Source: Nereocystis luetkeana (taxonomy: Eukaryota > Sar > Phaeophyceae > Laminariales > Laminariaceae). Taken from it: a stretch of 64,000 nucleotides of DNA. The stretch spans positions 1,910,940 through 1,974,939 of the forward strand of contig JARUPZ010000019.1 in the NCBI GenBank assembly GCA_031213475.1. Reading direction: 5' to 3'. The position numbers and the translations under genes were made by a program. The stretch's first letter is position 1; each line of letters starts with the position of its first letter. The notes beneath the pieces are model-generated. The model saw only the letters and a program-made list of their open reading frames with translations. It made no database searches and had not been told where the DNA came from. Positions 974 through 64,000 of this stretch are shown here, piece after piece.

Positions 974-3900
974 CTGACAAAATGAGCGGGACGGAAGGGA
1001 GGACGAGCGCGCAAAGAAAGCACGAAGGAACGAAAGCAGCAGCACCAAGCGCGGATAAGGATGACAACAACCGAAAACGATCGATGCGGGAAACCTATGC
1101 ACGTACATATCGAGGGGGGGGGGGAACGAAAAACAAAAAACGCCTCGGACGGTACTGGTGGAGAGGCAAAAAAAGGCAAAGCGGCTTCAGGCTTCAAGCA
1201 GGGGGTGTGCGTTCGATGTCAAAAACGGGGAAACACACACAGACACACACATAGAACCCCGCCGCACCCAAAACACTACTACCGAAAAACCACAGCAGCC
1301 CGACGACGGCCGTGACACGAGGCAAGTCCCACACGCGCTAGCCCAAGCTCGTCCGCTTCTGTACACACCGAGCTTGCGGGAATCAGCCACGTACAGCTCT
1401 CGCAATCAGAACTAGAAAAAAAAATAAAAAAAAATGGACAAACGAACGAACGAACGAACGAACGTACACGTTGCAGACAAAACAGTACACAGCAGACAGA
1501 CGGGCCGACAGACTATTACGGGGGGCCATAGTTAACAGGACCAAATATTGTTAGTAAAAATGGTTAAACATATAGGTTCTTATGTATACCATAGGTCCTG
1601 TTAACTATGGTCCCCCGTAATATTAATACTTAAATAGTGGAAGCAGCCTGCACGCACCCAGGTAAGCAGAAATCCCCCCCCCCTCCCAATATATAGGCAA
1701 GAAAACGGCCTCATAGGATTTTTTTAAAAAACGGGGGAAAAAAAACGGGGAAAAAAAACGAGACAAAAAAACAACCATATATGTAACCTGGTATCATTAG
1801 TACATCCAACGAAATAATAGGGTCGTCCTCGGGAGGCGACGAGAAAAAAAAAGAAACGCACGTGGTGGTTGGTGCTCGCTCGCGTCGCATGCAAGGAAAG
1901 GAGGAGAAATGAAGTTCGCGTATCTATAGTACACGGTGATACTTCCTTCGTGTTTATACTATTACGGGGGACCATAGTTAATAGGACCAAATGTTGTGAG
2001 TAAAAATGGTTAAATATATACCTGGTAGTTTTTATGTATACCATAGGTCCTATTAACTATGGTCCCCCGTAATATACATACTTGATATTAAAAAGAGGGT
2101 GCACGGGAATGTGCAGCGCAGCGCGGGAGGGGTAACTCGTTGGCCGGTGACTGGCCGTCGGGAAAAAAACAAAAAACATCTTGAGTGCAGCTCTACTCTA
2201 TTGCACAGTCGAATCGATTAAAATCGACCAACAGCGGCAATGCTGCGAAAAAACCAAGGCACGTACCGGGGGGGGGGGGGGGGGGGGGCGTACTCATTTG
2301 TTGCTTGCCTTAGTCATTTGACCATTGACCACGCATCCCTTTCGAGACGGAGCACCGTTCCTACTCCTAACAGAGACACCTCCAACAATTGGGCGCTCAT
2401 TACGTTGTTTCCATATATTACATAGAAACTTTTTGCTAATCTTATCCCCTTCCTGTTTGGCCGCCTGTGGCCACCATCTATCTCCTAGGATAGCGATCGT
2501 TTTCTCGCTGCTATCTAGTGTGTCAAACTCCTCCATGTCACACTCGTCTATTTCCCTCATCTCCTCTTCTAACACATCCCGTTCCTCCTTGTATATTTCA
2601 CATTCTCCTACTATGTGAGTTCTACTCTATCGCTTTGCCACACGGGCACATCTGTGCATCTATTTCCTCCTCCTCCCGGCTACTGGTATACCTCTTTCTT
2701 CTTTCTGGCAAGTCCAGGTCGCCTACACGAAACCGCAGCTTCAGCGTTTTCGCGAAGTCCATTGGGCCGTGCAGATACGCTTTCATTCCTATTCCTTCCC
2801 TCAATCTCCCGTATATCTCTAGGTGCTTTTCCGATTCCACCTTGTTTCGTAGCGCTAGCCTTTCCCTTCTTTCTATTCTTTCTGCTACTTCTGCCTTGTA
2901 CTTCCCAAACTTCCCGGCGAACATCACCTCTTCTTGGTTTCCCCCTATATCCTTCCATACTTTCTCAACTACGCTATCCCACCTTATTCCAGTTCGCCCT
3001 TTTGGAGGGGGGGGGGGGGGGCGGAAGAAGGGGAGACAGACACCTGTGTCCAGTCCACCCACGGCGTGTCCACAAGTGATGGTAAAATGAAAAACAAATA
3101 AACAAAAAAACACAGCTCTAGCGCCCACCTTCTCCGTCTTCTTCACTTCTTCCGCGAAGGACATGAAGTCCTTCCACTCGTTTCTACCCGACAACGCGAA
3201 GCGAGCAGAGAAAAGGAGGCGGAGGCGGAAATGGGGAGGAGGGGGAGGACTGACGAGTTAGCGGGTGGCGGCGGGCGGGGGGGGAGGGGGGGGGGGGCTG
3301 AACCAATCACCGTACTTTGCAAACTTAAAAGTATTTATCAAGGCATTAATTTACTCTTAATCGCCCCGCCCACGTCGCAAATCTTCGATAGATGCGCCGC
3401 GAGTCGCGCAGTACTTGATGAGATGCTCACGGGTGGGTAGCAGCGGCACCAGTTTGGAAAGAAACATCACCCGTCGATCGCAGGAAGCAAGTAAAAAGCA
3501 CGACGCGTCAAAAGCTATATATATTGCTACTACTCCTACTGCCTGCCCTCCGCGCGTGGAACAGACGTTTAGCTTTCGCAAGGTACACCCGGCTTCTACC
3601 ACCCGCATGCCGGACAAAGAGATGACGGCGGGGCGGACGCCTCGAGGAGGGGCGCTGTTTCAGCAGCACCGCTCGAAAGCAAACAACCGCCACCCCGCCG
3701 AGCGTCCAGCCTAGGCCGCCCCGGAAGCACCGTCGCTCGACAGAAGCCAAGCCCCTAAAAATTCGCACGCACCGCCGCCGCCGCCGCCTCCGACGCTGCC
3801 GCCGCGGACACCACGCCTACTACGGTAAGCCCTGAACGAAAACCAAGCCCACCCCATCAACTCCAACCCCCCCCCTCCCCCCCCTTCCCACCCTCCTCAA

Positions 3901-6900
3901 ACGCTCGCCGATCATCTGTGCACGTAGTTCCAACTCTAAGCGCTTCGCTTGCGAGACTGCTGGGGCACCTACGTACCAAGTGCGAGTCCGCGCCACTCTG
4001 ACGACCGGCAGAAAGTGCCGCGAATGAACGCGAATTACAGTAAAAATACCACTGAAGTGTTGAGTAACTCACTGCTCCTCCTCTTTCTTTTTGGCCTTGA
4101 GGTCAACGCCGCGAGACTTGGCGTCCACCTCCGGGTCATCGAAGAAGCCTTCGGGAAGAGCGGACCCGTTCGGCGCCTCCCCTCCCTCCCCCGCTCCGGA
4201 CGCACCCTCGCCACCCTCGCCACCTGCCCCGTCGGTGCCCGTCACCGCCGCCGCCGCCGCCACCGTTCCGACAACTTGCACCATGCCTGCCGCCCGCATC
4301 GCAGCCAACATTTCCGCCTGCCGTACACCATCCGCCTCGGCAACCAGGGCAGCCTCCGCGGCGAGCTCTGCTGCTCGTTCAGCTCCAAACCTTTCCTTCG
4401 CAGCCGCCGCCCCTCCCCCCCCCCCCCGCTGCCGCTGCCGCCGCCGCCGCCGCCGCCGCCGCCGTTTCCCGAGATCGCTTTCCCGTATCACCCCGACCCC
4501 CCCTCGAAACGCCTCCCCTACCACCACCACCACCACCACCACCGCCGCCCCCGCTGCTATCGCCGCTGACCCCTCCAACACGGGGTGCCCCCGGACTCGC
4601 ACCGCTACTGTCAGGGGTTTCCACACCCTCGTCGAAAAACCCGGCCGGCAAGCCCTGCGGAACTGAACTGGCGGTTTCGGGAGCGTCGGCCCTACCGTTG
4701 ACGCCGTCGCCACGTCCTCCCCTCCGCCCTCCCTCCGCACCCCCCGCCTCGTCCTCATCGCTGCTGCTGCTGCTGTCGCTTCCTCCAATTCCCAGGAGGC
4801 CTGGGCGGACGGCGGGTAGGGGTCATGTTGCAGAACCCATGAGGCGAGGACAACAGAGAGGCCCGGATAAAAAACGATCGTGGCTGGTGGGGTGGGGGAG
4901 GGGGGGGGAATATTTTGCGGACTTCGATGGGCGTCGTTAAGTTGCTGCCAAGTCGATTGTTCTATGTTTTTTTGCGCGAACGAAGACAGGTGGCGGCGGC
5001 GGCGGCGGCACGGACCGGAGGCGATCGTCACGACCGGCGGGCATCGAAAACGTTCGACAACTCAAGGGACCATCTCCTTGCTTCGAGGCCTTCCCTTCCT
5101 TCCTCCCTCCCTCCCTTCCCCCCTCTTGCATCCGACACGCAGGCGCAATAAAAATCATTCGCGAGGTACTGTACATCTATTGGGGTGCGTGCGCGCATGT
5201 AGAGCGAGGCGCGAGCTTTCGTAAGAACTATCAGCGCCAATCGATTCACGGCCGCTTTCGGTGCTTCTCTCGGAGGATAACGCAATGTATAGTCTCGCGG
5301 TTGTTGGCCCAGACACGCAACGCACACACGGGGGCAGACGATACGCATTTTGCAGGGCGCTGGAGCCATGTAAGGCGAGCGCGCGGACGGGAGGTACTCA
5401 TGCCATGCATGGCGGTAGTCGTGCGACCATAGACCTTCGCATCCCTACACATAACGTCGGAACGGAACACGTCGGATTTTCACTGACCAGACCAGACATT
5501 TCTTGCACCTACTGCAGCGCAAAGGGCCGTGAGGTGTCCGGCGAGTCGCATGAAGGGTGAGCTGCATCCTACTAAGAATCGCTTGTGAGGCCGGCTTTCT
5601 AGCATATGGATGACAGCGGGGGTGGGGGGGGAGGGAGGGGGGGGGTACTCATTATCATGCATGGCCGTACTCGGCGGGACGCCAACGAAAACGCAATCGC
5701 ACGCAAGGCCTAGAGACGGGAAAAGGCTTCACGGCACCGTCTTACCACCGAAAATATATACCAGGTATACAGTATATATAGTTACATGCAAAGTCAATAC
5801 GAGAAGGTTGATCATGAAATATTTGACACCTACCCCACCCCCGTTGTTGCGCACCCACCAGGAAACCAACTACCACCACCAACAACAACAACGCCGACAC
5901 CGACACCAACAATACAAACACCAACACCACCAACACTGCAAATATCATTAACAGCAACACCCTCCCCCCCCCCCCGCATGACACTGTAAAACATGCCGCT
6001 CACTACGTGAGCTAGACAACCAGCGTACCGTTTCTTTGTGTATATATATTATACATATATATATTGCCGGTCGCCCACAGCTAGTTGTCGAGTTAGATCA
6101 TTTGTGCGAGGTAAAGAACCTTTACTCCGCACAAGGGAATTGATCGTATCACGTAGTGTTCAAGGAAAGACCCCCAAGAGGCAGCTACATAGTGCTTCCA
6201 TTGCGGTCTCTGGAAATGCCTACACCGGAAATTAAATTAGCTCATTGAAGCTGTCATCCACAGGCAAGTCCGCCTCACAAGCGGTTCTCAGTAAGATGCC
6301 AGCTCACCCTTCATGCGACTCGCCGGACACCTCACGGCGCTTCGCGCTTGGTGCAAGCAAATGTCCGCCTGGTCGGTCAAACCCCGACATGCTCCGTCTC
6401 GGCATTGTAGGGATGCGAGGGTCTATGGTCATACGACTACGGCCATGCATGAGATCGAGCATATCTCTCCTATCGAGTACACACCCCCCCTCATCCCCAT
6501 CACCACAATCGCAACCAACACCAGCAGCACCAACACCGACACCATAACGCCAACACCAACAACACCAACACCGAGAACAACACCACCGCCGGCACCATAA
6601 CGCCATCCGCACCACCACAACACCACAACACCCTAACCAACAACCTCACCAGTACGAACACAACCACAGGAAATTCACGACACGCCATTTCCCACGTGCC
6701 GACATGCCTTCGGTTCGCGCGGCCGTCGCAGTGTCATATACCAGCACAACACAGTCAGCCAAATCGAAACAAAAACAAAAACAAAAACAAAAGACAAACC
6801 AAGCAACACCGAACCAAACCAAGCCAAACCAAACCGAACCAAACCGAATCGAATCGAATCGAATCGAACCGAACCAAACCAGACCAGACAAGACCAGATC

Positions 6901-9900
6901 AGACCGAACCAAACCAAACAGAACCAAACCAAAACCGAACAAACCGAACCCAACCAAAACCGAACAAACAAAACCGAACCGAACCAAACCGAACCGACCC
7001 AAACCAAACGAAATTATACCACAATAAATCAAAACCAAAACAAAAACAGAACAAAAACAAAACCTAACCAACCCTACCTGTCAGTCCGCCACTCCCGGCC
7101 TGCACCACGCCCGTGGTCGGCGCGGTAGCCCGCTTAGGCGCTGGCGCCGGCACCGGCACAGCCACCTGCTCTCCCATTCCGGGGCGCAAAAAGAGGCGTG
7201 GCGAAATGCATACAGCAGCAGAAGATAACCAAACAAACAAACAAATAAACAAACAAACAAACAAACAAACAGAGTCGAGTTGAGTCGGGTCAAGCAGCGT
7301 TGAAAAAACAAAGAAAAACGCATGTCTACAAGGTACTGGTAGTAATGTCATGGAGCCCGTGGCGTTGGCGTCCGAACCGCCCTTTGGAGCTAACATCATA
7401 CAAAACCCTAACGCTTGTTTCTGCTGTAGGTTTTGCTCCCAAGGAGCAGTGATTTCTCCTGAATCCCGTAGAGCGAGGGGAGGGAGGGGGGGAGCTCAAT
7501 ATTATGCATGGCGGTAGTCGTATGACCACAGGGGAGGGAGGGGGGGGCAAAAATGCTTTGCTTACACCACTACCAGGTATGTACCTACTTGGTATATATA
7601 ACGACCTTTTGTATTTAATATTAGTATAGAAATGGACCAATATTTCGGGACAGAGTGGTAAAAAAAACACTCGTCGCTGCTGCGTACTGAGCCCCGCTCG
7701 ATCTCCTTTCCCATCACGAAACTCGTTTCCTGCGGGCGGACATAAGAACCCCCCCCCTGCGCCCTGCAGCGTTTTTCTTATCCGTGCCAGCTCGATCTCG
7801 CTAAACGAGCATCATCACAACCGCAAACACATTTACATATCACGCCTGACTCCGCGTCCGACCCTGCGCACCGCCTATCGACACCCACCAGAACCGTGCA
7901 CACGGAGAGCAGCGTCTTATAATACCCCCTCCCGTCGCCGGGGTCCCTAATCCCCCCCTCCATCCCCTTCTCCCCGCCTCCAACACTTCCCCTAGCCCCC
8001 CCATCTCTGGAAGTTGGCCACACCGGAAAAAAAAATCACTCATCGAAGCTGTCATCCATCTGCAAGTCCGTCCGCCTCACAGGCGGTTATTAGCAGGCTG
8101 TCGCTTCCTATTTCATGCGACTCGCCGAACACCTCACGTTTCGCTTCGCGCTTGATCCAAGCCATCGAAGTCTGCCTGGTTGGTGAAAACCCGACGTGCT
8201 CCGTCTCGGCAGTGTAGGGATGCGAGGGTCTATTGTTGGACACACGACTACGGCCATGCATGACATCGAGTACACCCCCCCCGACCACCACCTCTCCGGC
8301 CAAGAACACCGCACGCACCCTGACAGTAGGAGTCGTTGTGCGAGATGGCTTCCGCTCCGCAGAGCGCGGGCTTGGTCCCGCCGCCGACGCTGCGGCCGGC
8401 TTCGCACCCATGGTCTTCTTGGCCCTGAGCAGAGCCAGCAGCTGAGGGCCGTGTCGCGTTGAAAAATCAAGCCAACAACAAAACAAAAAAACAAAAAACA
8501 AAAAGCGAAGCAAAGTAAAGCAAAGGAAAAAAAAAACGGCGAGCGAGCGAGCGAGCGAGCGGACGGACGGTACGGTAAAAGCGGGATATATGCAGACCGT
8601 ACAAGGAGTAAGGAGCAGTGTTGGAAAATGAAAATCGTGTCGAAATTGTCCATATATTGGTGCCCCCTGTGCGGAACGCCGTGTGAATGATGGAAACCCA
8701 TCCCCGGATGTATCGAAGCCTTGAAATTTCGTAGGATACCAGGTATGATGTAGCGTGTCGAACCGCATTTGTTTGCCCTCGATTCCTTAGCATCTCTCGT
8801 ACTATTTATGCCGACACTAAAATAGTATTCGTGTGACATTTCGTTTTTCTGCTCTACTACTGTAGCTCCGAACGTTCCCATCGAGCCGAAAATTGGCAGG
8901 GCGGATAAGAACTCCTTGGTGCACTCCCGTGAGTGTGCCAACGCGACAGCACTTTCCGCGTCCTCCTTCGGTGCGGACCTCGTCGCTGAAGTTTGAAAAT
9001 GTGGCTCCAGGCGTTTGAATCTTCAGTTTCTCGTACTGTACGAAGCAGAGTTTTTTTTTCTGCCGTAGAACGAGAAGGAGGAACGCAGGAGCTGTGTGTA
9101 CGAGTACGTACTCACAATATGCTGTACCAGGTACACAATTCGGCCCGCGTGCTCTCGCTTGCGCCGGTAAAAGCATGCCCAAGGAACTTCGTTTTCTCTC
9201 CCGATGCCCACAGAGACAACACGTAGTGCGCTGGCCTCGATAGTGTAGATAGACTGCTGGCGGTGCTCTTGAAAAGAGCAGCGAGAGAACGACAGAGCAT
9301 ATTTTCTACATCTGTATGTACGAGTGAGTATATACAGCAGTAGCTCCTCGTGGGTTCCCCCAGCTCCTTCTACAGCAGAAAAAACACTTGGCTACAGTAT
9401 CAGAAACCCAATACTTAAGTGCCTCGATACACATTTTCAAACTTAAGGGATGAGGTGAGCCTCGAAGGACGACACGGAAAACGCTGTCGCTTCGACACGC
9501 TCACGAGAGTGCACCAAGGAGCTCATATCTGCCCTGCCAATTTTTGGCTCGATCGGAATGTACGGAACTAAAGCAAAAAAATGAAATGCCCTCAGGAAAA
9601 AGAACGGTGGCGGACGTGGTTCCAGTGTCTTTGTTATCGGGAGTTTTTTTTGTGTTTTGTGGGCAGTGCAAAACAGGTGTTCCAAACCATGTCTGCACGG
9701 CTTCTCTCGGTTTGAATGTGAGCGATATGAGAAAGTAAACAGTGTGAAATTTGGTAAGAAAGAATGAGTAGAATGTATAGTAGACCAATCAACAGCAGGA
9801 CCTAGGAGATATCTACGTATTACTTTACCGAGAAACGCTGATAGGATAAGTGCCGAGTAATATACAGTAGGAACTACTATACAGCAGAGAGGATATGCTG

Positions 9901-11670
9901 AAGAGAGGCTGTTTGGGTCCTGCTCTCTGCTTCTCGGCACGGGAGAGACGTTGGTCAACTGAAAGCTGGGGGTAGATCAGCTCTTCCCACGAGCACGGAA
10001 ATAATAGGAAGGGAATATTCGGAGTAGTTGGGATGGCGAGACGAGCAAAGTGAGATAGGTCGCCCCCGCCCCTTCCTGTCAGCTCCTCGTTCACCCTCAT
10101 CTTCTGCCCACCAGCAGGGGCATACCTCGTATGATTAAAGACTTTTCGGCATCTTTGAACAAAGGCCACTGCAACTACACAACGAGCCACCTCAGCTGTT
10201 CATCTCACATCATCACTGTGTACAGTAGTCCTTACTCCGACAAATCAGATGGGGGTTTCCACGCAGATACTGATGCGTTTTCCTTGCAGGGATAACGTGC
10301 AATCCGTCTAGACAGATGGAAACTCCTTGGCGGACGGCTTCAACCGGCTATCTACTTGACGCTTGCCCATCTCCCTTCAACTTTTGACCGGTACAGCATC
10401 AGCACGAGCAGAAATGGAGGTGGACACTTCAAATCAAAACCAGAACTGCACTCACGTGGTACCTGGTATACGATATGAACTCGGAATTATTGCAGGAATT
10501 TTTTGCTAGGGACGTTCGTACCATATCCGTGTCTTGGCTGGCAGAGCTCGCGTGGCAGCATTGCAAGAGCAGCAGACAGCAATGCTACTTCCGTGCTGCA
10601 GTGTGTAGGTTCCACAACGCACAGCCGCAGCAGACTTATATAGACGCAACATCAGTACGCTACAAGAGTACAGAGTACGGCACAGAGTAGTACAGCGTAC
10701 CACTCAGCTGACGTTTCTACAGGACTCCTCGATCCTGACGGCGCCACCACTTCCTGTGCAATCACCGATAGGCTATTATAAATAAAGTCGCACCCCGTTC
10801 GTCTACTACACAGGTGCCCGACGGGTATTACCCGGGTCTGTCACGACCCGTTCGGGTAAAAGTAATACGTAGTACCTGTCGGGTAATTGGACGCGGCTAT
10901 CCGATTACCCTGGTACCCGACAAGAACGGATATCCGTGTGCCTGGGAACCCGGGTACCCGGTCAGAATACGTATCCCCGATTCGAAATATGGAATATCCC
11001 ACTCCGTACCTCCGAACACCTACAGTGTATGCACAATTTTGATTGACAAAAAAGTCAAGGTCTTCAACACGCACAGACAAACACGTCGTTTGTTGAAAAA
11101 GCGGAGGTTCACACCCGGGTACCCGATATGAGCAGGCACCTACTGTAGGTACCGGACACACACGGGTACCCGTTACATTTTCGTTCGGGGATTGGTGTGC
11201 TCCACATTGGGTACTTGTTAACGTGCCAGGGTGTGAAATTAGGGTTCTCCCCTTGTGCCGCTTTCTTACTCTGTTACCTGTAAACAGCACTGCTACATGT
11301 TGTCCGGGTACCCGGCACCCGGGTAGCTGCGTACCCGGGTACCCGCACTACCCTGGATCGTGTGCCTGATTACTCCCCGGAAAGTCTGGGTACGCGTTGT
11401 ACTACACAGCACACAGCGATATAGAGGTCAAACCCCGACACAATGCCAGGGATCCCCATCAACACTTAATACTCGCAAGAATTAAGAGCAACTCTGTACG
11501 TATGCGAAATAGGGCTGTCCTACCTCCTCCTTGCTCTTTCCGTGGTATTTGCTCGACCCCCCAGCTCCTCCAGGTGCTGCTGATGTTGATTTCGCTGGGC
11601 CGTCTCCCTTGCGGCTTTTGGCCTGCTTGAAAAGAGCTCGAGCGTCAGGCTTCTTCTGGCGGCTAGACAT
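909..11670 (-). CDS. ZNF830: ZNF830/CCDC16-like zinc-finger pre-mRNA-processing protein (multi-exon, 3' end outside window)
   Basis: Six minus-strand exons join with matching phases: 11670-11524 (starts at ATG, ends phase 0), 8441-8319 (0/0), 7165-7078 (0/1), 4800-4073 (1/2), 3183-3129 (2/0) and 973-909 (0/2). Recognition rests on two FFD motifs: GLPAGFFDEG (about 4650) and LPEGFFDDPEVDAKSRGV (about 4120), the second being the hallmark of ZNF830. It is followed by NEWKDFMSFAEEV and then an acidic coiled coil (EEDKEQYEELEQA), the same order as in the family. GLLGIGGSDSSSSSDEDE at 4800 matches the family's acidic linker. ZNF830 proteins are nuclear and associate with the spliceosome/XAB2 complex (family knowledge). 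The N-terminal exon is Lys/Arg-rich. The expected single C2H2 (U1-type) finger exon should lie between 11523 and 8442, but I could not find it. A one-base frame break lies in exon 4800-4073. The C-terminal exon(s) must lie left of base 909 or outside the window. Confidence 0.7.
1514..1623. mobile_element. MITE family 1
   Basis: TATTACGGGGGGCCATAGTT at the left and TATGGTCCCCCGTAATA at the right, with the intact uninterrupted core GGTTAAACATATAGGTTC. It can serve as a reference empty site for the TACCWGGTA insertions. Confidence 0.8.
1959..2075. mobile_element. MITE family 1 carrying a TACCTGGTA insertion
   Basis: Same palindrome; the core AAATATATA/GGTTTTTATG is split by CCTGGTA at 2021-2027. 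Confidence 0.8.
2268..3006 (-). pseudogene. 5'-truncated non-LTR retrotransposon (LINE) 3' end with poly(C) tail
   Basis: On the minus strand, RTGIRWDSVVEKVWKDIGGN begins just after a G/C run at 3007-3021. The frame continues through a Cys-type motif CPCGKAIE...HIVGECEIYKEERD, a post-reverse-transcriptase zinc-knuckle arrangement common in LINE ORF2 C-termini. It ends with GCVVNGQMTKASNK and a TGA stop. A one-base frameshift sits at about 2610 (between KAIE and HIVGEC), so it is dead. The stop codon is part of ATGAGTAC, followed at once by the C-run (2269-2288 on the plus strand as G). No reverse transcriptase core is present. It lies in an intron of the ZNF830-like gene. Confidence 0.6.
3129..3183 (-). 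CDS. ZNF830: Small ZNF830-like exon (EWKDFMSFAEEV)
   Basis: Acceptor GGGTAG and donor GTGGGC bound 18 complete codons reading NEWKDFMSFAEEVKKTEK. The phase (2 in, 0 out) restores QNEWKDF after KKKEEE of the preceding exon. It aligns with the EWDEFQ-type helix that follows FFDDPEVDA in ZNF830. The open frame continues into adjoining LINE-derived sequence, so the exon is easily mistaken for part of the retroelement. Confidence 0.6.
4073..4800 (-). CDS. ZNF830: ZNF830-like exon with FFD motifs and a frame break at a C/G homopolymer
   Basis: This is the longest exon of the gene. The acceptor CCGCCCAG ends at 4801 and the donor GTGAGT begins at 4072. The first part reads GLLGIGGSDSSSSSDEDEA, then SSVPQGLPAGFFDEG, then a Gly-rich stretch and RSRETAAAA. 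After the C-run at about 4412-4430 the family sequence continues in another frame: KERFGAERAAELAAEAALVA, then LPEGFFDDPEVDAK. The exon body is not a multiple of three, so one base is extra (or two missing). A homopolymer length error or polymorphism is the simplest cause; a real pseudogene or a hidden micro-intron is less likely because both sides keep family motifs and flanking splice phases agree. Confidence 0.7.
5391..5665 (-). mobile_element. Two SINE-like copies in tandem, both truncated
   Basis: A copy at 5391-5612 ends in GGATGACAGC. A second G run with TACTCATTATCATGCATGGC follows at 5619-5665 and contains only the 3' end. Confidence 0.55.
5981..6492 (+). mobile_element. SINE-like retroposon, near full length
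   Basis: The sense strand begins near GACACTGTAAAACATGCCGC and runs about 0.5 kb to GGCCATGCATGAGATCGAG, ending in TATCGAGTACA followed by C-rich sequence. The body is shared with copies at 21146, 38872 and 43980, including GCGAGGTAAAGAA, AAGCTGTCATCCA and GGTGCAAGCAAATGTC. It has no coding frame. It is interpreted as a non-autonomous retroposon sharing its 3' terminus with the LINE at 2268. Confidence 0.65.
6765..7075 (+). repeat. AACCA/AACCG/AATCG pentanucleotide array
   Basis: ACCAAACCGAACC-type units with an (AATCG)n core near 6845, flanked by CAAAAA runs. It is the same motif class as at 17703 and 43015. It lies in an intron beside the small exon at 7078. Confidence 0.75.
7078..7165 (-). 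CDS. Probable small internal exon, ZNF830-like gene
   Basis: Acceptor GAGCAG and donor GTAGGG bound VAVPVPAPAPKRATAPTTGV and onward to GSGGLTG. The exon starts in phase 0 and ends in phase 1, exactly what the exons at 8319 and 4800 need. The joined G codon gives GLTG-LLGIGG. It is surrounded by CAAAC/ACCGA-type simple repeats, and codon content differs sharply from those flanks. Confidence 0.45.
7485..7535 (-). mobile_element. SINE-like 3' stub
   Basis: GGGGGGAGCTCAATATTATG then CATGGCGGTAGTCGTATGAC matches only the 3' terminus and is bounded by G-rich runs on both sides. Confidence 0.45.
8030..8282 (+). mobile_element. SINE-like copy, 5'-truncated
   Basis: It starts at ATCACTCATCGAAGCTGTCA, includes the CGCCTCACAGGCGG hairpin and ends GACATCGAGTACA plus a C run. 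Confidence 0.6.
8319..8441 (-). CDS. Probable internal exon, ZNF830-like gene
   Basis: Acceptor CCCTCAG and donor GTGCGT bound 41 codons, LLALLRAKKTMGAKPAAASA and onward to TTTPTVR, phase 0 at both ends. It fits the low-complexity linker after the zinc finger in this family (LLALLRAKK resembles the helix that follows the finger). A SINE-like copy (8030-8282) abuts it in the downstream intron. An alternative reading is a separate first exon starting at the ATG at 8411. Confidence 0.45.
8880..9553. repeat. Inverted repeat, arms about 122 bp
   Basis: Arms 8880-9003 and 9432-9553 are roughly 80% identical as reverse complements (for example CTCCTTGGTGCACTC and AAGTTTGAAAATGTG). They are separated by about 430 bp. 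Open frames cross both arms but none was recognised. Confidence 0.6.
10808..11366. repeat. Cluster of CGGGTACCCG palindromes
   Basis: At least six full or nearly full CGGGTACCCG units (about 10950, 11117, 11164, 11307, 11335) and many half-sites GGGTA/TACCC occur in 560 bp, spaced irregularly. It is otherwise non-repetitive and lies in the first large intron of the ZNF830-like gene. Confidence 0.6.
11524..11670 (-). CDS. ZNF830: Putative first coding exon of the ZNF830-like gene
   Basis: ATG at 11670 opens MSSRQKKPDARALFKQAKSR and continues for 49 codons to KSKEE, then donor GTAGGAC (phase 0). A short basic start with an ARALFKQAK-type helix suits ZNF830 proteins, where it precedes the zinc finger. 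The link to the downstream exons rests on strand, order and phase only. The opposite strand and other frames show nothing better. Confidence 0.5.
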
Positions 11671-14070
11671 GGTGATATTTCCTGAGAGCGGGCCGGGATT
11701 ATACCCCTATAACTAAGTAAGCTGGCACACGACACACAGCTGCACACTGCCTTGCACACAACAGAGGCGCTGCTGCCGTATGTGTGTGTGGGCCGGCCTG
11801 GCGGAGAACCATGGTCATTCTCGTTCCCTTGCAAATAAAGCCTTCCATCATTTACCAACTACAAGAAGTCGTAAGTTGAATTCTCGTGGGAGATGGAGAA
11901 CCAGCTCAGCTCACAGCTGCTTGTTGTCCACATGGCATTACCTGATGCCAGACGCTCCCTGAGGAGATGCTTGAGATACTGGAGAGGTGTCGCGTTGGGG
12001 GCAGGGCTATCAATCGCCTTGCAGCTAGCGTCGAGAGCCGATGGCTTCAACCCTCCACGCACGGTAGCGCAGCCTTGGGCGAGGGCGCGACAACAGCGAG
12101 CGGTGGGCGTCGAGCGGAGCACCTGGTGGGAGCGGTGAGAACTAGCGAACTATGCGGTGTTTGCCGTCGGCTTTGAATGCGATATGCGTAGGTCGTGATT
12201 GGCTGAGAACAGACCCGGGTAAGGAGTACCTAGACGTCAAAGCAGCATGTGCTGCTGTCTCCGGCTCATGTGGATCGTCCTACTGCTGCAGATGGGCTAC
12301 AAACGTAAACATGAAACATGTCCAGCGTCCAGCTCAACATGTCGTTCCAGCCTTCAGCCGCCGCCACTGCTTGCTGCTGTGTATCGTATGAATACTTCCC
12401 TCCGCTAAGCTCTCAACAGCAGCACCAGCACTCAGAAGCACTTGGGCACAGGCAGGCTACGCGGACGCTCTGCTCCGAGCGCGTCAATTCACGGGGTGGT
12501 GTGCTCGCGCGCCCCCGGCTGTGTGAATGGCTGCAGCGAAGGCATAAACATGCAAAATCATGGCGGACAGCGCGCGCAGTACCACTCTGTTCGTAAATAT
12601 AGAGAGCGTTCGATATTTGGGGTGTATACCCAAACGCACCCTATATTCCCGAATGTATGGGTACGTACTTGCCCAAGCTGCCACAGCAGCAGTATGGATA
12701 TATACTGCACCAGTTACTCAGAACCGGTAGCAGCAGGTAGCAGTTGCGGTTCGGCCCAGAGCAGTTGGTGGCTTTACTGCACGACGGCGGTAATAGCGCT
12801 GTTTTTTTTTGTTTTTCGACGTCGTGGGGCCGTCCGTCCCCCCCTACAAGTAGACAAGATAAGGCAATCTGTACAACTGTAGTAGATGAGAGCGCCGTTT
12901 TCAACTTCCAGAAACATCTGTACCCGCTGACTGCTGTACCCAAAGATGTCGCGAGACAGCACTTTTACCCCTTGACAGACACCGTCAAGGCAAATGTTTT
13001 GACAAGCAGCCTTGACAGCCAAAACCCGGGGACGCTAAGAAAAATCCCCGTTCTTCCGGAAGCGCCTGAAAAAATTAGCCGAAAGTACGTACCTGGTATT
13101 AATATTAATAGTGTGTTTTCCTGTTTTCCTGTATTCTTATTATTTGGGGGATTTTGATACCTTTCCGAGTCCGATCTACAGAAAGATGCAATTGAAATGC
13201 AGAATCTCGATATTTTCAAATAAGCTCCAAATGAAACAAGTAAAACAGCTGCACGTAAAAATGAAACAAGTAGGGGTTTCCACACATTCAAATAGGCTTT
13301 TTCTGCCGGGGGGGGGGCACGGGGTATATGTCTAGACAGATGAATTTGCCTTGATAGGCAGTCTTGACAGACAGCTTGACACTGACATGTCTCCTGACAT
13401 CTTCGGCTGTACTAGGTATTGTGTTGCGTGTTGCGGTTTTTCGGGGTTTCTATGCAGATACGTGGGCGCTATTGATGTAAGGGACAGGAGAAACTATACC
13501 GACCGCCAAAACGAAATCGATTTTTCGGTTTCGCTTTTTTTTGGCAACCGAAAAACCGACTCCAAAAAGTCGGTTTTCGGTCATGAAAAATCGGCCAAAA
13601 GCTACTCCAAGAAATACTACGTTTGGTTTTCGGTTCACACCACCCTACGAGCCGTAAATTGTTTCGTGTTTCGGTATACAATACCTGGTACCTGGTATGC
13701 AATAATCTATGCCCGCGCAGCACCATCACGACGGGCGCCTGCCTCTATCGCTGCGCATTTGTTGTATCCACTTGAGGTATTTGCGAGAGGGAAACTGATG
13801 ACGCTTGGGGTCACATAACGCACCGTCGACTTCCGGGAAAGATGAGCAATGTTCAACACTTGGCACACGCCATCTTCCACTCCAGAGTTGTTAAGAGTCC
13901 GTCCTGTGACCACGGGGTGGGTTTTTGGCGACGAGTTCACGTGCGAACAATAACAACCGTTGACTCCGGTAATTATATGTATAGGGACGAGGGACACTTG
14001 TTAAATACTACACCCCACGAACAACTTGTTATGTTGTTTTTATCTTGCCACCTTCCCCTCTTCTCCGCAG
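11671..14070. other. Spacer between the ZNF830-like and NYN genes
   Basis: The two genes diverge from here, so both promoters are expected within it. I see no clear TATA or other element. It holds TACCWGGTA units at 13090 and 13682/13689 and a hairpin-rich stretch (13530-13590, ACCGAAAAACCGACT and complement). An upstream non-coding or first coding exon of the NYN gene could be hidden here. Confidence 0.4.
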
Positions 14071-41284: not shown

Positions 41285-41424
41285 GGACAAAAGCAATGGA
41301 ATAAAAAATAAAAATTGATGCCAGGCGTCGCGCACCCACATACATACCTGGTAACTCTTTTTTCCCCTCGTTATTTTTTTCCTCTTTGTCCTCCCTTGAA
41401 ACTAAAAGGCAACGACAAGTGGAG

Positions 41425-42178
41425 TCAGTAGGTCGATGTTCAAGCCGGAAAGTAAGCGCAGTAGGAGCCGAATGGATCTACTCGTAGACGTGTCCAATAG
41501 GTTTCCTTGCGTAGGCTGATGCTAGGCTGGAAGCACAGTGGGTGCCACACGGAGGTAGATACCAGGTATACCATTGACTTTCTTGTCCAAAAAAAGGTTT
41601 CCTTGGGCAGGCTGGTGTAGGACTGCAAGCACAGCAGTGAGTGGGTACCGAATGGAGCTACTACTGCTGCACTATGTATTAATAGCCTTCCCCGAGTGGT
41701 GAGGTTGGTGTCAAGCCGGAAATGCAGTAGTAGGTGCCAAGTAGAGCTACCGAGTACACACAGACTACCGTCGTTGTAGCAGCAGACAGACTATCGCAGT
41801 AGTAGCAGTGAGTGGGTCCTACCACAACAAGGTAGGCGGTTAGAATAAGGTGGCCGACTCGAAACAAGGCGGTTGAAATCGGTTGTTCGCCTCGACGGTA
41901 ACTCTGAACACAACCGCCCGGACCCTCGACGGATAGGGCGGCCTCTCGGCAGAAGATAAACAGAGAGGCCAAGATTGCCTCGCACTACTGCTGCTGCTGT
42001 ACGGCCTTACAGACATACTTCGTATATAGACCCCACTACCGTAATGAACATGTTCAATAGGCTTCCCTCGTTTGATTCTCTATGGACTTTCAGAAGGGTC
42101 GAAGGAGGGCAACAGCTAGAGTAGGTTGATGCCAAGCCCGCAAGTACAACCCGCACCGAGTGGAGCTACAGTAGGCTA
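41425..42178 (+). repeat. Degenerate 50-60-bp repeat, about five units
   Basis: Units near 41425, 41510, 41607, 41700 and 42120 share TAGGCTGATG...AAGCCGGAAGTACAG...GTGCCGAGTGGAGCTAC. Spacing is irregular (85 to 420 bp). No reading frame is shared. Confidence 0.5.
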
Positions 42179-43870: not shown

Positions 43871-44712
43871 ACGGGTAGTCTAGGCGTGTAGTGTACCTGG
43901 TATATAGTGTGTGCGCTCTTCAAGGGGGGGGGGGGGGTATACTCATTGTCATGCATGGGCGTAGTCGTATGACCACGGGGGCGGGGGGGGGGGGGGGTTG
44001 TACTCGATAAGGAGAGATGTACTCGATCTCATGCATGGCCGTAGTCGTATGACCATAGACCCCCGCATCCCTACAATGCCGGGACGGAGCATGTCGGGTT
44101 TTCACCGACCAGGCAGACATTGCTTGCACCAAGCGCGAAGCGCCGTGAGGTGTCTGGCGAGTCGCATGAAGGGTGAGCTGCATCCTACTAAGAACCGCTT
44201 TTGGGGCGGACTTGCATATGGACTACAGCTTCAATGAGTTGCTTGAATTTCCGGTGTAGGCATTTCCAGAGACAGCAATGGGAGTACTATGTAACTGCCT
44301 CTTGGGTGCCTTACCTTGAACACTACGTGATACGATCATTCCCAATTGTGCGAAGTAAAGGTTCTTTGCCTCGCACAAATGATCTAACTCGACAACCAGC
44401 TGTGGGCGACCGCCAAAAAAACAAAAACAAAAAAAGGTACCCTGGTTGTCTAGCTCAGGTAGTGAGCGGCATGTTTTACAGTGTCGTTGCCAACCGACGC
44501 CAACCCAACCTATATCAAATAGGCCAACGGGTAGTCTAGGCGTGTAGTGTACCTGGTATATAGTGTGTGCGTTCTTCAAGGGGGGGGGGGGGGGTATACT
44601 CATTGTCATGCATGGGCGTAGTCGTATGACCACGGGGGCGGGGGAGGGGGGGGGGTGTACTCGATAGGAGAGATGTACTCGATCTCATGCATGGCCGTAG
44701 TCGTATGACCAG
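43871..44712 (+). repeat. Direct duplication, unit 656 bp, second copy truncated
   Basis: ACGGGTAGTCTAGGCGTGTA and about 180 bp more at 43871 recur at 44527 with few differences, until similarity ends at GTATGACC (44712). The first unit holds the full SINE-like copy and the second only its tail. Confidence 0.7.
43980..44520 (-). mobile_element. SINE-like retroposon, full length
   Basis: On the plus strand: G run, TACTCGATAAGGAGAGATGT, full body, ending CCAACCCAACCTATATC. It is the best-preserved full copy in this orientation and is framed by the 656-bp direct duplication that starts at 43871. Confidence 0.65.
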
Positions 44713-44762
44713 CGGGGGGGGGGGAGGGTATTGTACACCTACCTGGTACTATTTAACACTAC

Positions 44763-45085: not shown

Positions 45086-45205
45086 TATTATTACGGGGGG
45101 CTAGAACAACTAGGATCTATGGTACCCACAAAAACCTACCAGGTATATATTTACCCATTTTATCTAACAATATTTGGTCCTATTTACCATGGCCCCCCGT
45201 AATAA
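45086..45205. mobile_element. MITE family 1 with insertion
   Basis: Reverse core orientation; AAAACCTA/TATATTTACC is split by CCAGGTA at 45139-45145. Confidence 0.7.
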
Positions 45206-45340
45206 CATTCCCCCAAAAAACAAACCCGAACAAAAAGGGAAAACTAAAAGCAGGGTATCCTACCCACATATGCGCGAAGTCTATGTATCACTAGACCCCC
45301 CTCCGTATACTTGTGCCTGCTTTCCGGCCGGACATCGATC

Positions 45341-48036: not shown

Positions 48037-49129
48037 GGGGGTGGGAGCGAAAAATAACCAAGAATGTGCGTAGGACTAACGGTCAAGCGCGAAAACGCTG
48101 ATTTAGAGGAGGTTGAAGACGCGAGACCGTACGTATGTATACGTAAGCAACTCTGGCCACGAAACCCGGAACGAACGCAAAGACTGCCGGTACACTGCAA
48201 AAATGCCACGTATGCGTATACGGTACGTGCGTGTGTAAACTGTCACTCAAAGTCTGAGTTGCGGGCGTCGTTCCTAAATCCTAAATATCTCTGACTGCAG
48301 AAAAACGGCTAAGATACGTCAAGGCCGAGTTGCAAAGGCGGGGGGTTTCACTCCGAAAAACAAACCCAAAATTCAGAAAAAAACGGAAATTAATCGAGTG
48401 CAGTGGTGTCCTACCGACGACGCCAATTGTTAAAGATATTGGCACACGCACATAAAACGAGACCCGCACGTATCCCTCCCCCCCCCCTCCTGCGTTGTCA
48501 CGTCTTTCTTGTCGCCCTTTCGCGTGTGCTGTGTGAGTTGTATTGGACATATACGGGTTTCGGTATAGGATCCAATCCGGGTGCAAAACAGACGATCGGG
48601 TCTTGCCTCACCCCGAACGAACCCCCTGCCCTCTGGTTTTCAGTATGCGTACACAATTTAAGTACAACAGCAGTACAACTACTAGTAGTACTATAAAGTT
48701 CGAGTAGTAGTAACTCTTCCACTGGTGCCGTTATTTACAGGTGCTAATAGTTACACTTGCTGTTTTTGTTGGTGCTGCGCCGCTGTGAAAATTTAAATGT
48801 GAGCTGTGAAGGGCCCAGCAAGTAAGTGGGGTTCAAGGGTGTCTCTCGCTAGGATCACACCGCGCAAAAAGAGGAGAAGTCGGCGGGGAAATATAGATAG
48901 CGAGGTGTTGACAACTAAAACACTACCAGGTACCTGGTACGTGCGTACGCGCCTCTGTGCTCCCGTCTCTGCTCTTCTTGTGGTCTGATTTGTACCTCCA
49001 CGGCAGTCCCCTGCCCCCTACGCACGCATTCTTATTATACCCTCTATCAACTTTGTACCCGTGCGTGTCGTATGAAATTATGTGATATGATGTGATACAC
49101 GCACTCGTTCGTCGTGCAATCACACGCCC

Positions 49130-50005: not shown

Positions 50006-50227
50006 GGACCATAGTAAATACCAGTAAATAGGACATGGTATAGAATGAAACCTACCAGGTACCTGGTACATATTTATCTTTTTTTACTATTACGGGGGAC
50101 CATAGTTAATAAGACCAAATATTGCTAGTAAAAATGGTTAAATATAGAGTTTTTTATATATACCATAGGTCCTATTAACTATGGCCCCCCGCAATAACAA
50201 TACTTGGTCCTATTTACTGTGGACCCT
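50006..50227. mobile_element. MITE family 1, outer copy split by a nested copy
   Basis: The left half begins TTTCGGGGGACCATAGTAAA and carries a double TACCWGGTA unit (50053-50068). It breaks at TTTTTTTAC (50087) and resumes ACAATACTTGGTCC at about 50197. Confidence 0.7.
50088..50197. mobile_element. MITE family 1, inner nested copy
   Basis: A complete palindrome inserted at the TA of TTTTTACTAACAAT in the outer copy, the same internal position used at 19873. Confidence 0.75.
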
Positions 50228-51319
50228 CCTGCGGGGGGGGGGCACGACAGATTGTTTCTCTTAGTTTCTGCTTTCATTTTTCTCCTTTTTCTCTTTCGAT
50301 TTGTCTACTTTGTTTTTGTTTTCTCTTTGGTTGTTTCTTTTCGTTTCTCTATTTCATAGATTGTGTATGTCGTGCCTGTCGTATCTAGTATGATGACATC
50401 GCTTTGCATTGCCCACTGCAGTGCTTACTCCACACGTGGCAACGTAGTATCTCTGTGGCGTAGCTTTGTGACCACAGAACTTGTATCTCTTCTAGGATTG
50501 GAGAATCGGCACGGACACTGACTGTGGTTGTGCTGGATGTCGACGGGTAGAAAGAACGGTTTGATGTGAAGAACACACACACGTAATAATAGTATCAATT
50601 ACCAGGTATACGGGGGACCCATGAGTAACTACCTGGTAGGATCTAATCTTGTGATTAATAGAAAAAATACGAAAATATATAGATAGGTTTTTGTATGTAC
50701 CGTATAGGTCCTATTTACCCCTACGTCCCCCGTAGCGTAGTAGTACGTAGTGGTATACCTCGATCGGTACCTTTTTTTTGCCCATGAACGATGAACCATC
50801 AACACACCGAGTACAGTGTCGAATCAACACTTCAACACTACTATACTCGGTCATTCATTGTCACTACGGACGGAACTCACAGCTTTGTGCTTGCACGTAC
50901 GACAGCAATCTGATAGGGACGGGCACACAGCAAACTGCCTCTACAGCAGCAGCAGTGTGTGTGTGTGTGTGTGTGTTCTTCACATTAAACCGTTCTTTCT
51001 ACCCGTCGACATCCAGCACAACCAGTGTCCGTGCCGATTCTTCCATCCTAGAAGAGATACAAGTTCTGTGGTCACAAAGCTACGCCACAGAGATACTACG
51101 TTGCCACGTGTGCAGTGTGAACTGCAGTGGGCAATGCAAAGCCATGTCATCATACTAGATACGACAGGCACGACATACGCAATCTATGAAATAGTGAAAC
51201 GAAAAGAAACAATCAAAGAGAAAACAAAAACAAGGTAGACAAGTCGAAAAAGAAAAAGAAGAAAAAAAATGAAAGCAAAATCTAAGAGAAACAATCTGTC
51301 GTGCCCCCCCCCCCGCAGG
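50228..51319. mobile_element. Fold-back element with inverted arms of about 360 bp
   Basis: The left arm (50228-50584) starts CCTGCGGGGGGG...CACGACAG and ends CACATCAAACCGTTC-complement sequence. The right arm (about 50955-51319) is its reverse complement, ending CTGTCGTGCCCC...GCAGG. Matches include GGCACGACAGATTGTTTCTC and GTCGACGGGTAGAAAGAACG, with only scattered differences. The loop (about 370 bp) contains a MITE family 1 copy. No transposase frame is visible. It abuts the right end of the MITE at 50006. Confidence 0.7.
50601..50738. mobile_element. MITE family 1 with insertions
   Basis: The left arm ATACGGGGGACCCATGAGTA is diverged. TACCTGGTA at 50630 splits the arm and TACCAGGTA at 50600 abuts the left end. 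It lies in the loop of the 1.1-kb fold-back element. Confidence 0.6.
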
Positions 51320-52050
51320 CGAGGTGGCCTACACTTGAAAAAGAACGAGCTGGAAAAAAGAAGAAATAACAAAAGACACCACTGCTTGTGAACAGAGTAA
51401 GACAAAGAACCAAGGAGAAAGTAACAAGGAAAAATAACAAAGGGGAAATAACAGGCAGACCAAAGCCCAAAGCACCTTCTAGGTGGCGGCAGCAGCTTGT
51501 GGTACGAGTAGTATAGCCAGGTTCTCCCTGCTAATCCGCCTGGTACCTTGCTACCCAGACTGCCGTCTCCGCCCTGCGTTCGTCAACTATGCCCAGCCCC
51601 TTGGCGTCAGACAATACGAGCCGAGCAGAGCAGGTTCGTCTTCCTACCACGCCACACGGCTCCTTGAGTACGGCTTATCAATCAGAAAAGGAAGAGGAAG
51701 AGAAAAAATGAAATGAAAATCACGGAGAGTCAGCGCAAGAAAGAAAAAAAAAAACAGTGGGAACGAACGACCGTAAAATATTATCGTACTCGGTACGAAA
51801 CCTACAAAAAAACAGCATACTGCTGTACCAGCATACCAGCATACCTCGTACCTGGTACGTTTTACAGGTACCAGGTACTGGTACCTGGTGCCTACCAGTA
51901 CCTGGTGCCTGGTATTGATTGTTGTCGTACCGTATATGTATGACGGAAAAAATCGGAAAAAAGAAAAAAGAATAAAATACTCGTTGGTTTGTTCCTGGCT
52001 GTGGCGCTCGGCTGGCTACTGGCTGGCGGGCGAAAAGCGGTGGAACCTAC

Positions 52051-52542: not shown

Positions 52543-55397
52543 GTGAGAGCAACAGAAGAGGTTCGTTCAAGAAAGGAGATGTCAGAGAAGTTGCGGAGGG
52601 ACGGCATAGCCGCGTGCGGGGCATGGTGCTTTGTCGGCGAAGAGGAGGGACTGGGTCGATCGCCATTGGATCTTTTTGCTCCCGGAGTCGAGAGATTCAC
52701 ATAAAATGTTTTTCGTACGTGCCTATGTCCGTAAATTTAAGACACGTTTGTGGTCTAGTATCAAAATAAAATAATGTGTATATTTTCGGATATATTGGCA
52801 TCTCTCTGTTTTGAAGAGGGATTTGTGCAACAAAGGCAATGATATCTGTATGTACTGATTGTATACACACAAGAGGTGGTATTGTCGTCGGGCACGGGAT
52901 GGAATGATGTGCCCGATACACCGCGCGAAAACGCGTTTAGCTCGCTCTCTCTCGTCCGTTTGGCTTCGCAAGCTCTCGGCCAGCGGCCGACCTGACAGGT
53001 CCACTACCCCTCCCGGAATTTCAGTCGTTCAAGATCCGAGCCCCTAGCCTCCCTGCTGCGGGGTGCACATTGCACAACACCAGAACAGGACCAGCCGCAG
53101 AGGGCCAGAGAGAGGCTTGAACTAGCGATTCATCACAGACAGGAAAACCCCACGCTGGCCGGAAATATAATACACGTTTTCGATATTCCTGACCAAATAT
53201 TGGTATTTTTACAGCGGCAGCAGCGGTATACCAAAATATACATGTACTACTGATGCTACCGTGATAATACCGATCTGTCCGTAAATATAATGACGGATCT
53301 CAGGATCATATTGGGGCTAAAACGTTAATTATATTTATGGACAGATTGGTGCGGAAAAAAAAACGCCTCGTACCAGGTACCAGGTACCCATGAAGTACTG
53401 CTGTAGTTTGTCTCTTGCCTCTTGCCCCCTGTTCAGGGAAAATTGTGCTCGCGATGATTGGGGGACGATTGGGGAGAAATTACTTGGAATTAGAGTCAGA
53501 TGGTATGTTTTGTGAATTCAGTAATTTTTTTTATTTTTTTTTTTATCCTCCGGCGGATTGGTAAAAATAAACCTTAAGCTCACCACACTACCACGTTCGT
53601 GTCGTGTGTCAATTTAGCCCAGTTGGGCACGTTGACCCGACCTGACCCCCGAGAGGAGCAGGTGCGGTGGAGATAGCCACCCGGGAGAAAATAAACGCTC
53701 GCTTGTCGCCTGTCGCCGGGGAGCCAGCCCGCCAGGAGGAAAAAGGAAAAAGGGACTATTTAATACTGGTATTAATATTGAATATTTAAATATTAAATAT
53801 TAATATTAGGTACCAGGTACAGCCAGCATGTACAGGTAGGGAAGAGGAAAGAAGGCAACCTTCGTTTTGTCGTGCCTGTTGGCATTACTTTCATATGAAA
53901 AAAAGTGAACAAAACGACATCGTCGACTTGAAAGAAAAATGCTTCTCGTTGTTCAAGTTACGAGTAGCAACATGCTGCTGTTCCGGTATGATACAGCGGT
54001 ACATAAATAAAAAAAAAAGTCATGGAAGTGTTGCGGAGATCATGGATCGTCGGTGAATCATATCGTTCAGTCCCCCCGCGAGTATTATGGATTTTGTATG
54101 TTTTCAGACACGATTACTGAGTGAGGAGTGAGGGGTGAGAGGTATACCTGCCCATACATAACTATTAATAGCAGGCAGCAGCAGCAAACAGCAGCAGCAG
54201 CAGCAGCAGTAGCAGCTACAGCAACATGACATCTACAACTACAGCATTTCGCCGTAGAGTAAGAGGGCGCCCGCAATACACTGATATTTATCCTACATAC
54301 CTGGTACAGCCAGTAGTAAATACCTGGTACCTGGTACCGGTACCAGATATCAGTAGACGTCAATTTCTTTTTCTCTTGGAACGCGCTATTGGCTGTTAAC
54401 CCTTTTAGAACTCCAGTCCCGTTTTGGGGACACAACAGTCAAATTCCAAGTATTTTGTCCCAAATTGTCCCCAAAACGAGACTGCAGTCTTAAAAGGGTT
54501 AATACCGCTGGCTGTATACGAGTATTATATTATCCTGGAACAACTTATTATAATTATAGTGGTGAAAGCACCCGACCCTGAGCACCGTTTCCTCGGCCAG
54601 ATCTCTTACGACTCATCGTGAAAAAACGAACCTCCGTTTCTGATGCACGACCGAGTTTGCCCTCTCCGGATACCAGGTATGATATTCCGGGGGTGCGTAC
54701 GAGTACGAGTAGTACTTGGCTTATATGTACACCCGCCAAAAAAAAACCGGAAGAAAACAAACAAAAAAAAACGCGACGAGGGTACAAAACAAACCAGCAA
54801 GAAAGGAAGGAAGGAAAAAGGAAAGAAAGAACGAAAAAGAGAAAGGAAGACGAAGCATACATGCGCTCAGGGCGCAGACCGAGTCCCGGCGGCAACGCTG
54901 TCCGCTTGAATGATCAATCCTATACTATGGCCAGCTGATAGACCAAACGACATATGGACGTCACAGAAAGGCCAGAGGCAAGAAGAGGGTAGGGACAAAA
55001 GAGCTACGAGTTCGAGCGGTCCTATATATGCCCAGCTGGTGGGTCAAGGACGACACGAGAGACACATATGTAGAGGACAGAAACAGACGGACCAAGGGGA
55101 GCTGAAAAAAACGTAAATCGAAACCAAAGTAACGAAAACGAAAAGTAGCGTAAGGGTCACGCAAATAGAACAAATTCGAACAAAAATAAGGCGACGCAGA
55201 ATAGCAGGGTGTGGGGGGGGGCACCATCGATTTCGCACGGGACAGGGCAGCACAACAAACAAAACAAAACAAAAACTAGAAAATGGGGATTGTATTGTAG
55301 CACAGCATTAGGCAGTAATCACTGGGCGTCTCAACTATTGACAGAAAGACGGCCAGTGCCACGTTTCGGCGAGTACCTTCCGTTTCTTAACCGGCGT
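52543..55397. other. Non-coding or unrecognised sequence downstream of the WW exon
   Basis: At least one more exon of the WW gene should be here. One candidate acceptor is TTTCAG at about 53024, but its short frame shows no family signal. Otherwise there are AT-rich tracts (53770-53810), TACCWGGTA clusters (53371, 53811, 54298-54336) and a MITE family 2 copy. Confidence 0.35.
54396..54502. mobile_element. MITE family 2
   Basis: TTAACCCTTTTAGAACTCCA to CTGCAGTCTTAAAAGGGTTA, with a 10-bp internal duplication (TTGTCCC). Confidence 0.7.
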
Positions 55398-55876: not shown

Positions 55877-56079
55877 TCTTGGCCGAGTGCAGGGCGTCTG
55901 CGTGTGAAAGCATGTGGTAACCGTCGCGAGGTATTCTCTACCAGACGATGCAGCGGACGAGCAATCGATGGTAAGCTGTCCGCAGTATGTGTACATACAA
56001 TAGTATTGTCATACAGAGTACCAGGTATGCTTTATGGATTTTATGGGCATACCCCCCCCCCCCCCCCCCCCGCCCCCGG

Positions 56080-62700: not shown

Positions 62701-62710
62701 TAATAACTGT

Positions 62711-62952: not shown

Positions 62953-64000
62953 GGGGCATGACTCCATCAGCAGGCCCTCCTCACTCGCCGGCACCCGGAC
63001 CGGGCTTGCGTGTACAGCAAGGGCGGCCCATGAATGCAAACGGACGATATGTGGAGAACTTTAGGTCGGTACGTAAGCATATCGTGCTCACCGGCTAGAG
63101 AGCTATGGTACACCAAATCCTGTATGCACCCGGACGTATTTAATTAGCGTATGACCTATGCTCAAGGTTTGCTCAAGGTTGATGCCCCTCGTATCGGGTT
63201 TCAATAGAAGCCTTTTTTGCTCAGGTTTCAGGTTTCACCTATCAATAGGCGTTTTCTTCTTGGGGGGCCCGTACTGCTGTACCACTCTGACCGATAATAT
63301 AAGCACCATTCGGGCTCTGATATTAGTATCGAACGATGCTTATGTTTCCGGTGAAAGGGTGGTGTAGAACGGGGGAGAGAACTGCAGTAGACGGACTGAA
63401 TTACTGCTGTAGCGCAAAGCGCGAGTGGCATTTGTAAGAGTATTGGGGCATAGTTCTGGCTTGGCGTCGGCCCACGAGCCCCGTAAAAAAGTGCACCCCC
63501 CTAACCACCGCACTGTACAGGCATGGGTCTAGTAGCATGCGTCCTCACTCGACAACCGCCCGACCGGGCTTCTACACCAAACACCACCTCCCCTACCGCA
63601 CTGTAGAGGCAATACTTGAGTAATAGGCCTCCACACTCGTCGGCCCCGGGATTACAGTGGTATCGGCAGGCACACCCAACTTTACGTGCCAGGTATTTTA
63701 CGTATGATATACCTGGTATATGTAACGTTAGGCTGGACGCTAGGAAATTTTGATCTCAACAAAGAAACCGCGCTCAGCAGCAAGAGCTGCATTGCAATAA
63801 ATCGTACCGGGGTTTATGATACAATAGCCTATGATGGCACGTGCTGCTCAAGTTTGCTAGCCTGTGCTCAAGGCCGCCCGCCTGCCCGTGCTCAAGGCTT
63901 GCCCGCCCCATGCTGGAGGTTGCTCGAGATCGGCGTCACGATGAGGTTTCGGGCGTACGTACCACTCTGTCCCATAATACAAGCAACGGTTTCACACTAA

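Follow-up and report, generated by a model that had tools for sequence, protein, structure and literature searches.

What could have spread the nine-base word TACC(A/T)GGTA through the 64-kb stretch of Nereocystis luetkeana DNA analysed here (hereafter the window)? Its two forms, TACCAGGTA and TACCTGGTA, are reverse complements and therefore represent one asymmetric unit in two orientations. Between positions 2019 and 63718 the window contained 48 exact copies, whereas 100 dinucleotide shuffles averaged 0.45 copies and never exceeded 3, which agrees with the at least 48 copies, against fewer than one expected, of the original prediction. The copies form 40 arrays, 32 of single units and eight of tandem pairs, none with an assigned strand. 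Those placed by the exact-copy count comprise the single units at 5759–5767, 7571–7579, 8737–8745, 9125–9133, 10460–10468, 13090–13098, 16724–16732, 20801–20809, 24744–24752, 27005–27013, 27795–27803, 30779–30787, 36132–36140, 39966–39974, 41345–41353, 41560–41568, 44740–44748, 50600–50608, 51849–51857, 51869–51877, 53811–53819, 54298–54306, 54671–54679, 56019–56027 and 63710–63718, and the tandem pairs at 13682–13697, 40640–40655, 48924–48939, 53371–53386 and 54321–54336; the other arrays are located below with the repeats that they touch. None of the 48 units lay in the three long open reading frames of the window, where 4.4 would be expected by length and 1.8 by TA content. Local hopping was considered as a source of clustering and rejected: nine spacings were below 50 bp against 4.2 expected (simulated maximum 11) and 16 were below 200 bp against 14.7, so that unit spacing gives it no support beyond the tandem pairs.

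Counting the word genome-wide, the check proposed with the original prediction, gave 182,395 copies in the window's own assembly (465,085,209 bases in 1,987 contigs); the reversed word, used as control, occurred 1,744 times. The enrichment thus extends beyond the window, and the objection that there might be none outside it is ruled out. In GTDB prokaryote contigs the fixed inverted dimer had 56 matches, with about 60 predicted from base count by our own arithmetic, and the dimer pattern had nine matches in viral contigs; both collections may leave out the window's own genome. A literature search on the 9-mers and the topic, with most subscription journals outside its scope, returned no report of such units.

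The way in which the unit arrives can be read from repeats that exist with and without it. Among 13 aligned copies of MITE family 1, the same core was seen in both states; four of these copies are interrupted (1957, 28000, 28510 and 45086), and with two further ones at 50053 and 50630 the earlier statement that six copies of this family are split by the unit is a fair one. The empty-site comparison is provided by the forward-strand copies at 278–390 and 1512–1625; the uninterrupted sequence once quoted as an example was slightly off, since copy 1512–1625 reads AAACATATAGGTTCTTATG. The unit at 2019–2027 lies inside copy 1957–2078, and that at 45137–45145 in the minus-strand copy 45086–45206, with 35 empty homologues of which 29 keep the TA. 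The tandem pair at 28064–28079 (A form, then T form) likewise has 35 empty homologues with the TA kept in 29, and a second site in the same copy, the pair at 28104–28119, has 32 with the TA kept in 21. The pair at 50053–50068 sits in a partial copy (15 empty homologues, TA kept in 14), and the unit at 50630–50638 in a diverged copy whose alignment has two small gaps. Copy 28510 has two interruptions, one of them the shortened form TACCAGTA. For the interrupted copy of the quoted example, an uninterrupted counterpart identical at 22 of 22 junction bases lies elsewhere in the genome, at L089:8377. A unit at 26743–26751 abuts a copy of MITE family 2.

The comparison was extended to a 273-kb sample made of the window and 23 own-genome loci (L066–L068 and L074–L093), in which 126 arrays had enough flank for a gap-free test with the unit taken out and one TA left. 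At least one empty homologue was found for 21 of the 126, and 19 kept theirs when the low-complexity filter was on and the TA was required. The closest pair, L077:9233 and L079:8129, is 98.9% identical over 90 bp. Weak cases are the window unit at 28540–28548 in MITE family 1 and L081:3428, each with the TA in only one of 41 empty homologues (best match GA for the former), L074:4610 with the TA in none of four, and L074:6714, which lies inside an AT run. Among 13 seven-base indels in repeat alignments at 85% identity or more, nine are the unit, from about six independent events. The unit therefore adds a net 7 bp with the TA duplicated, so the change from TA to TA-CCWGG-TA that had been proposed is borne out, both by the 19 of 126 arrays and by the nine of 13 indels. 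Insertion at TA with TA duplication is as in Tc1/mariner elements; the 8-bp target duplication of hAT elements is not seen, TA alone being duplicated at the unit. What the empty homologues prove is that the unit was inserted; they do not prove that something longer was excised beforehand. A hAT-like element, read by eye at L086:5460–6447 with CAGGGATGCGTATTTCC ends and the 8-bp duplication CCTGGTAC, lies inside a footprint; its terminal TACCAGGGATGCG, considered as an end of a CCWGG element, was rejected because it is the hAT-like end.

Could the units simply have been copied along inside MITEs, satellites or duplications that already carried them? Some evidently were: the paralogous copies with units at 43894–43902 and 44550–44558, and the palindrome arms in L077, inherited units together with their repeats, and L081:3428–3477 and window copy 28510 share the two MITE sites at which each of them carries an insertion. 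However, different repeats each have both empty and filled copies, and the target consensus described below remains when MITE family 1 flanks are left out, so that passive copying is very improbable as the general explanation. The L077 palindrome (5100–5560) is itself long; its arms are identical over at least 141 bases, and both contain double units.

Up to about eight bases out, the flanks of 128 arrays differ from those of ordinary TAs, symmetrically on both sides. The preferences are for A/T at −7 (G 0.06 vs 0.24), A at −6 (0.50 vs 0.25), A at −3 and A/G at −1; each has p <1e-6, and beyond −8 none reaches p <0.01. Without flanks having TA at −7/−6 the −6 signal is nearly gone (p 0.02) and those at −7, −3 and −1 remain, and without either unit-like flanks or MITE family 1 flanks the preference remains at all four positions. 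A symmetric AT-rich target around TA is a Tc1/mariner trait, and the palindromic AT target described for Tc1-like elements is similar in kind (PMC7913693). In the 273-kb sample, 116 of the 130 arrays were single and 14 double, the doubles being AA in five cases, TT in four, AT in four and TA in one; because they mix orientations, simple slippage cannot make all of them. The unit itself supplies a target half-site, which may explain the tandem excess.

Once in place, the unit decays as neutral DNA does. The 273-kb sample held 144 exact units and 145 single-mismatch forms, against 45 of the latter in controls, the excess consisting of 70 transitions and 30 transversions; this corresponds to roughly 8% per site if mutation made all single-mismatch forms. 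Two-mismatch forms, 565 against 548 in the control, were not clearly above it. A protein-binding motif spread or retained by selection would account for the very high copy number, but it sits badly with transition-rich decay, empty homologues and tandem units, as well as with the finding that one young transposon family (L100–L107, see below) contains no unit in its eight 3.1-kb loci, and we regard it as extremely improbable.

A second form of the unit carries one base more. TA-CCAGGG-TA (TACCAGGGTA) occurs 11,422 times genome-wide (5,725 + 5,697), against 409 (195 + 214) for the control. Approached from the other side, TATATACCWGG followed by a base other than T was found at 2,110 places against 502 in the control, and among the 100 of these places that were listed, 22 read CCAGGGTA and one CCTGGGTA; in the 273-kb sample the counts were nine and one. 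The extra G thus accompanies a central A rather than T, as expected if a flank retains one further base of the element, since that base would then derive from the strand that supplies the central A. Slippage gives no reason to prefer A in the six-base form, whereas the coupling fits overhang joining if the sixth base of an element is G. Of the first 100 places of TACCAGGGTA itself, seven form a tandem array with 528-bp spacing at G000:C1:1305185–1308362.

These observations are best accommodated if TACC(A/T)GGTA is the scar left on excision by a TA-target, cut-and-paste DNA transposon working in the manner of Tc1/mariner elements, which we consider probable. Such a transposon would insert at TA and duplicate it; on excision, its transposase would cut about 5 nt inside each end and leave 3′ overhangs CCAGG on both flanks, in which the outer CC/GG would pair and the central A:A mismatch would be repaired to A or T, giving TA-CCWGG-TA. 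Occasional retention of a sixth terminal base, presumably G, would give TA-CCAGGG-TA, and since the new TAs would be good targets, tandem units could build up stepwise, which may be the reason for their excess. The element, formerly present and then gone, would accordingly have had the ends TA-CCAGGG...CCCTGG-TA. A unit that is palindromic except for its middle base, with a strand-coherent six-base variant, fits 3′-overhang joining after excision, and the same model predicts that TACCTGGGTA is far rarer genome-wide than TACCAGGGTA. Of the original footprint reading, the insertion at TA with its duplication, the empty homologues, the target and the palindrome logic stand; no element turned up in the loci searched, and the 5-nt stagger is one that we infer from the form of the unit.

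The putative element was sought by scanning the window, L066–L069 and L072–L093 for inverted repeats of the form TACCWGG...CCWGGTA spanning up to 10 kb; the scan would not pick up an element exceeding its locus in length or one whose repeats are very short. The scan returned two perfect 20-base pairs and many pairs with 2–7 mismatches. The perfect pair in L077 belongs to the palindrome carrying units in its arms, that in L084 to inverted satellite-like repeats carrying units, and neither is an element; near-matching pairs in L089 and L086 were rejected as element ends, their similarity ending after 20 bases. At 100 listed places the sequence after CCWGG was diverse, with none dominant. A motif CCAGGAAYACY...TATCAGG is common to four of the 100; these similar short stretches, TATATACCAGGAAYACY...ATGTATCAGGT at G000:C1:3004832, 4122540, 10379521 and 13716250, may represent a repeat that begins or ends in CCAGG. 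The TA-flanked element with CCWGG ends and a DDE transposase that the original prediction had called for was not found in the own-genome stretches examined, which amount to about 0.07% of the genome in loci of 3–10 kb and place only weak bounds on it.

Aligned pairs in which one member carries an inserted segment were also compared across 345 kb, made up of 46 sequences of which some overlap: of 581 such pairs, many of them redundant, not one was bounded by CCWGG ends, and the same 345 kb held 162 exact units but no filled site among these pairs. This, together with tandem growth by one unit where L079 has one and L077 has two, would suit a direct 7-bp insertion in which, with no long element involved, an enzyme opens the TA and adds CCWGG, either templated or as the minimal substrate of a transposase. 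Direct insertion, however, does not explain why the unit is palindromic around a single ambiguous base or why GGG is coupled to a central A, the observed target preference resembles that of a TA-specific transposase, and we know of no enzyme that adds such a unit directly at TA; we rate it as rather unlikely. If transposon excision is retained as the source, the very many exact scars and the absence of an element from the stretches examined could also mean that transposon copies left near-quantitatively, in a life-cycle-gated or programmed manner, leaving few or no elements in the assembly. We saw neither excision machinery nor a stage in which elements are still in place. A small number of highly active autonomous copies working over a long period would look no different, and the search for the element was a limited one; programmed exit appears distinctly unlikely. 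The fuller version, a transposon with a 5-nt stagger that left more than 180,000 scars by near-quantitative excision, possibly under life-cycle control like that of the internally eliminated sequences of ciliates, is to be held as a doubtful proposal.

Transposase genes were present, with ends of other kinds. A DDE_3 profile search of the own genome gave no matches at 0.001 and 30 at E up to 10. The eight DDE_3 loci L100–L107 form one young family (97–100% identity per 100-column stretch to the right end), whose right end GGTCCTACTAATTATGAGCCTCCGTAATAG-TA matches MITE family 1 (window 278–390, 1512–1625 and others); they are likely the autonomous partner of that family, judging by this shared end, and for the same reason were rejected as the CCWGG element. 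Both MITE family 1 and L100–L107 end in CTATTACGG, and MITE family 2 and L109 end in AACCCTTTTAG, neither of which is CCWGG. At L109:525–2548, inverted repeats AACCCTTTTAGRACCGCAG surround a DDE_3 gene and match MITE family 2 (window 26752–26848 and 27086–27181). No CCWGG element was found around the DDE_3 matches in L108–L113, and L108 and L110–L113 were without definable CCWGG ends. A DDE_1 search gave 28 matches, and the scan of six of these loci (L094–L099) gave no TA-flanked inverted repeats. None of the DDE_3 and DDE_1 loci looked at was linked to CCWGG ends, their ends being other or undefinable. A Transposase_1 (PF01359) search of the own genome had no matches, as had its controls. The presence of young DDE_3 transposons with an end matching a TA-flanked MITE family gives the footprint reading a supporting context. 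Relatives of the MITE family 1 transposase occur in Ectocarpus (best 73%), Ascophyllum (58%) and Laminaria (50%), with two more at 80% and 88%; for one host open reading frame the only named relatives were from Ectocarpus, with 44% identity across roughly one fifth of the frame. By these protein relatives the host is most likely a brown alga.

Excision scars are as a rule no more than an occasional oddity, and to our knowledge no other genome has nearly so many. If the footprint reading is true, few dispersed features of a nuclear genome would here be commoner than the scars, which would densely document past transposition and keep generating 7-bp frameshifts; they would also provide material, already at hand, for testing how the still unseen element moves, and a 5-nt stagger would widen the known range of Tc1/mariner-type cleavage. 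Among known systems, Mos1 mariner ends begin with CCAGG, like the unit, and the Mos1 stagger is three bases; Transposase_1 was unmatched in this genome in a search whose controls did not work. Minos, also of the Tc1/mariner type, leaves TA, four terminal bases and TA, and differs from the unit in bases and length. The footprint of Sleeping Beauty and Frog Prince is C(A/T)GTA (PMC3878927, Table 1), and these elements share with the unit a TA target with duplication, a palindromic remnant and an ambiguous middle base; the unit has five (or six) bases rather than three, and its element was not encountered in the loci examined. Tc1/mariner footprints are given as 2–4 bp (PMC7913693), whereas the unit has 5 bp and its variant 6 bp. 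Because of this length, and because the stretches examined yielded neither a CCWGG-ended element nor a transposase linked to such ends, membership of Tc1/mariner is unproven and is not claimed. Ectocarpus, from the same host group as this genome, has abundant non-autonomous Mariner-Tc1 elements and MITEs; the study reporting them terms brown-algal transposon biology particularly underexplored, and the words 'footprint' and 'excision' are absent from its main text (PMC12477816).

Shortened forms of the unit, which had been ascribed to imprecise repair, differ in their enrichment. TACCAGTA and TACTGGTA, one word on opposite strands, occur four and six times in the window against 1.2 and 1.05 expected; in the 273-kb sample, however, TACCAGTA is found 30 times against 25 for its reversed control, so that this form is not clearly enriched, whereas TACCTGTA is (13 vs 3). 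Other words with a short insert between two TAs are also over-represented in the own-genome sample. The pair TACGAGTA/TACTCGTA, relevant to the comparison with Minos, is found 52 times against 12, yet had no empty TA homologue in 49 cases, no strong flank preference and no unit-like target consensus. TACWGTA occurs 90 times against 40, with empty TA homologues in four of 89 cases and a flank bias only for C at −1 (0.43). TACTCGATA occurs 22 times against two, with empty TA homologues in six of the 22 and strongly biased, repeat-like flanks.
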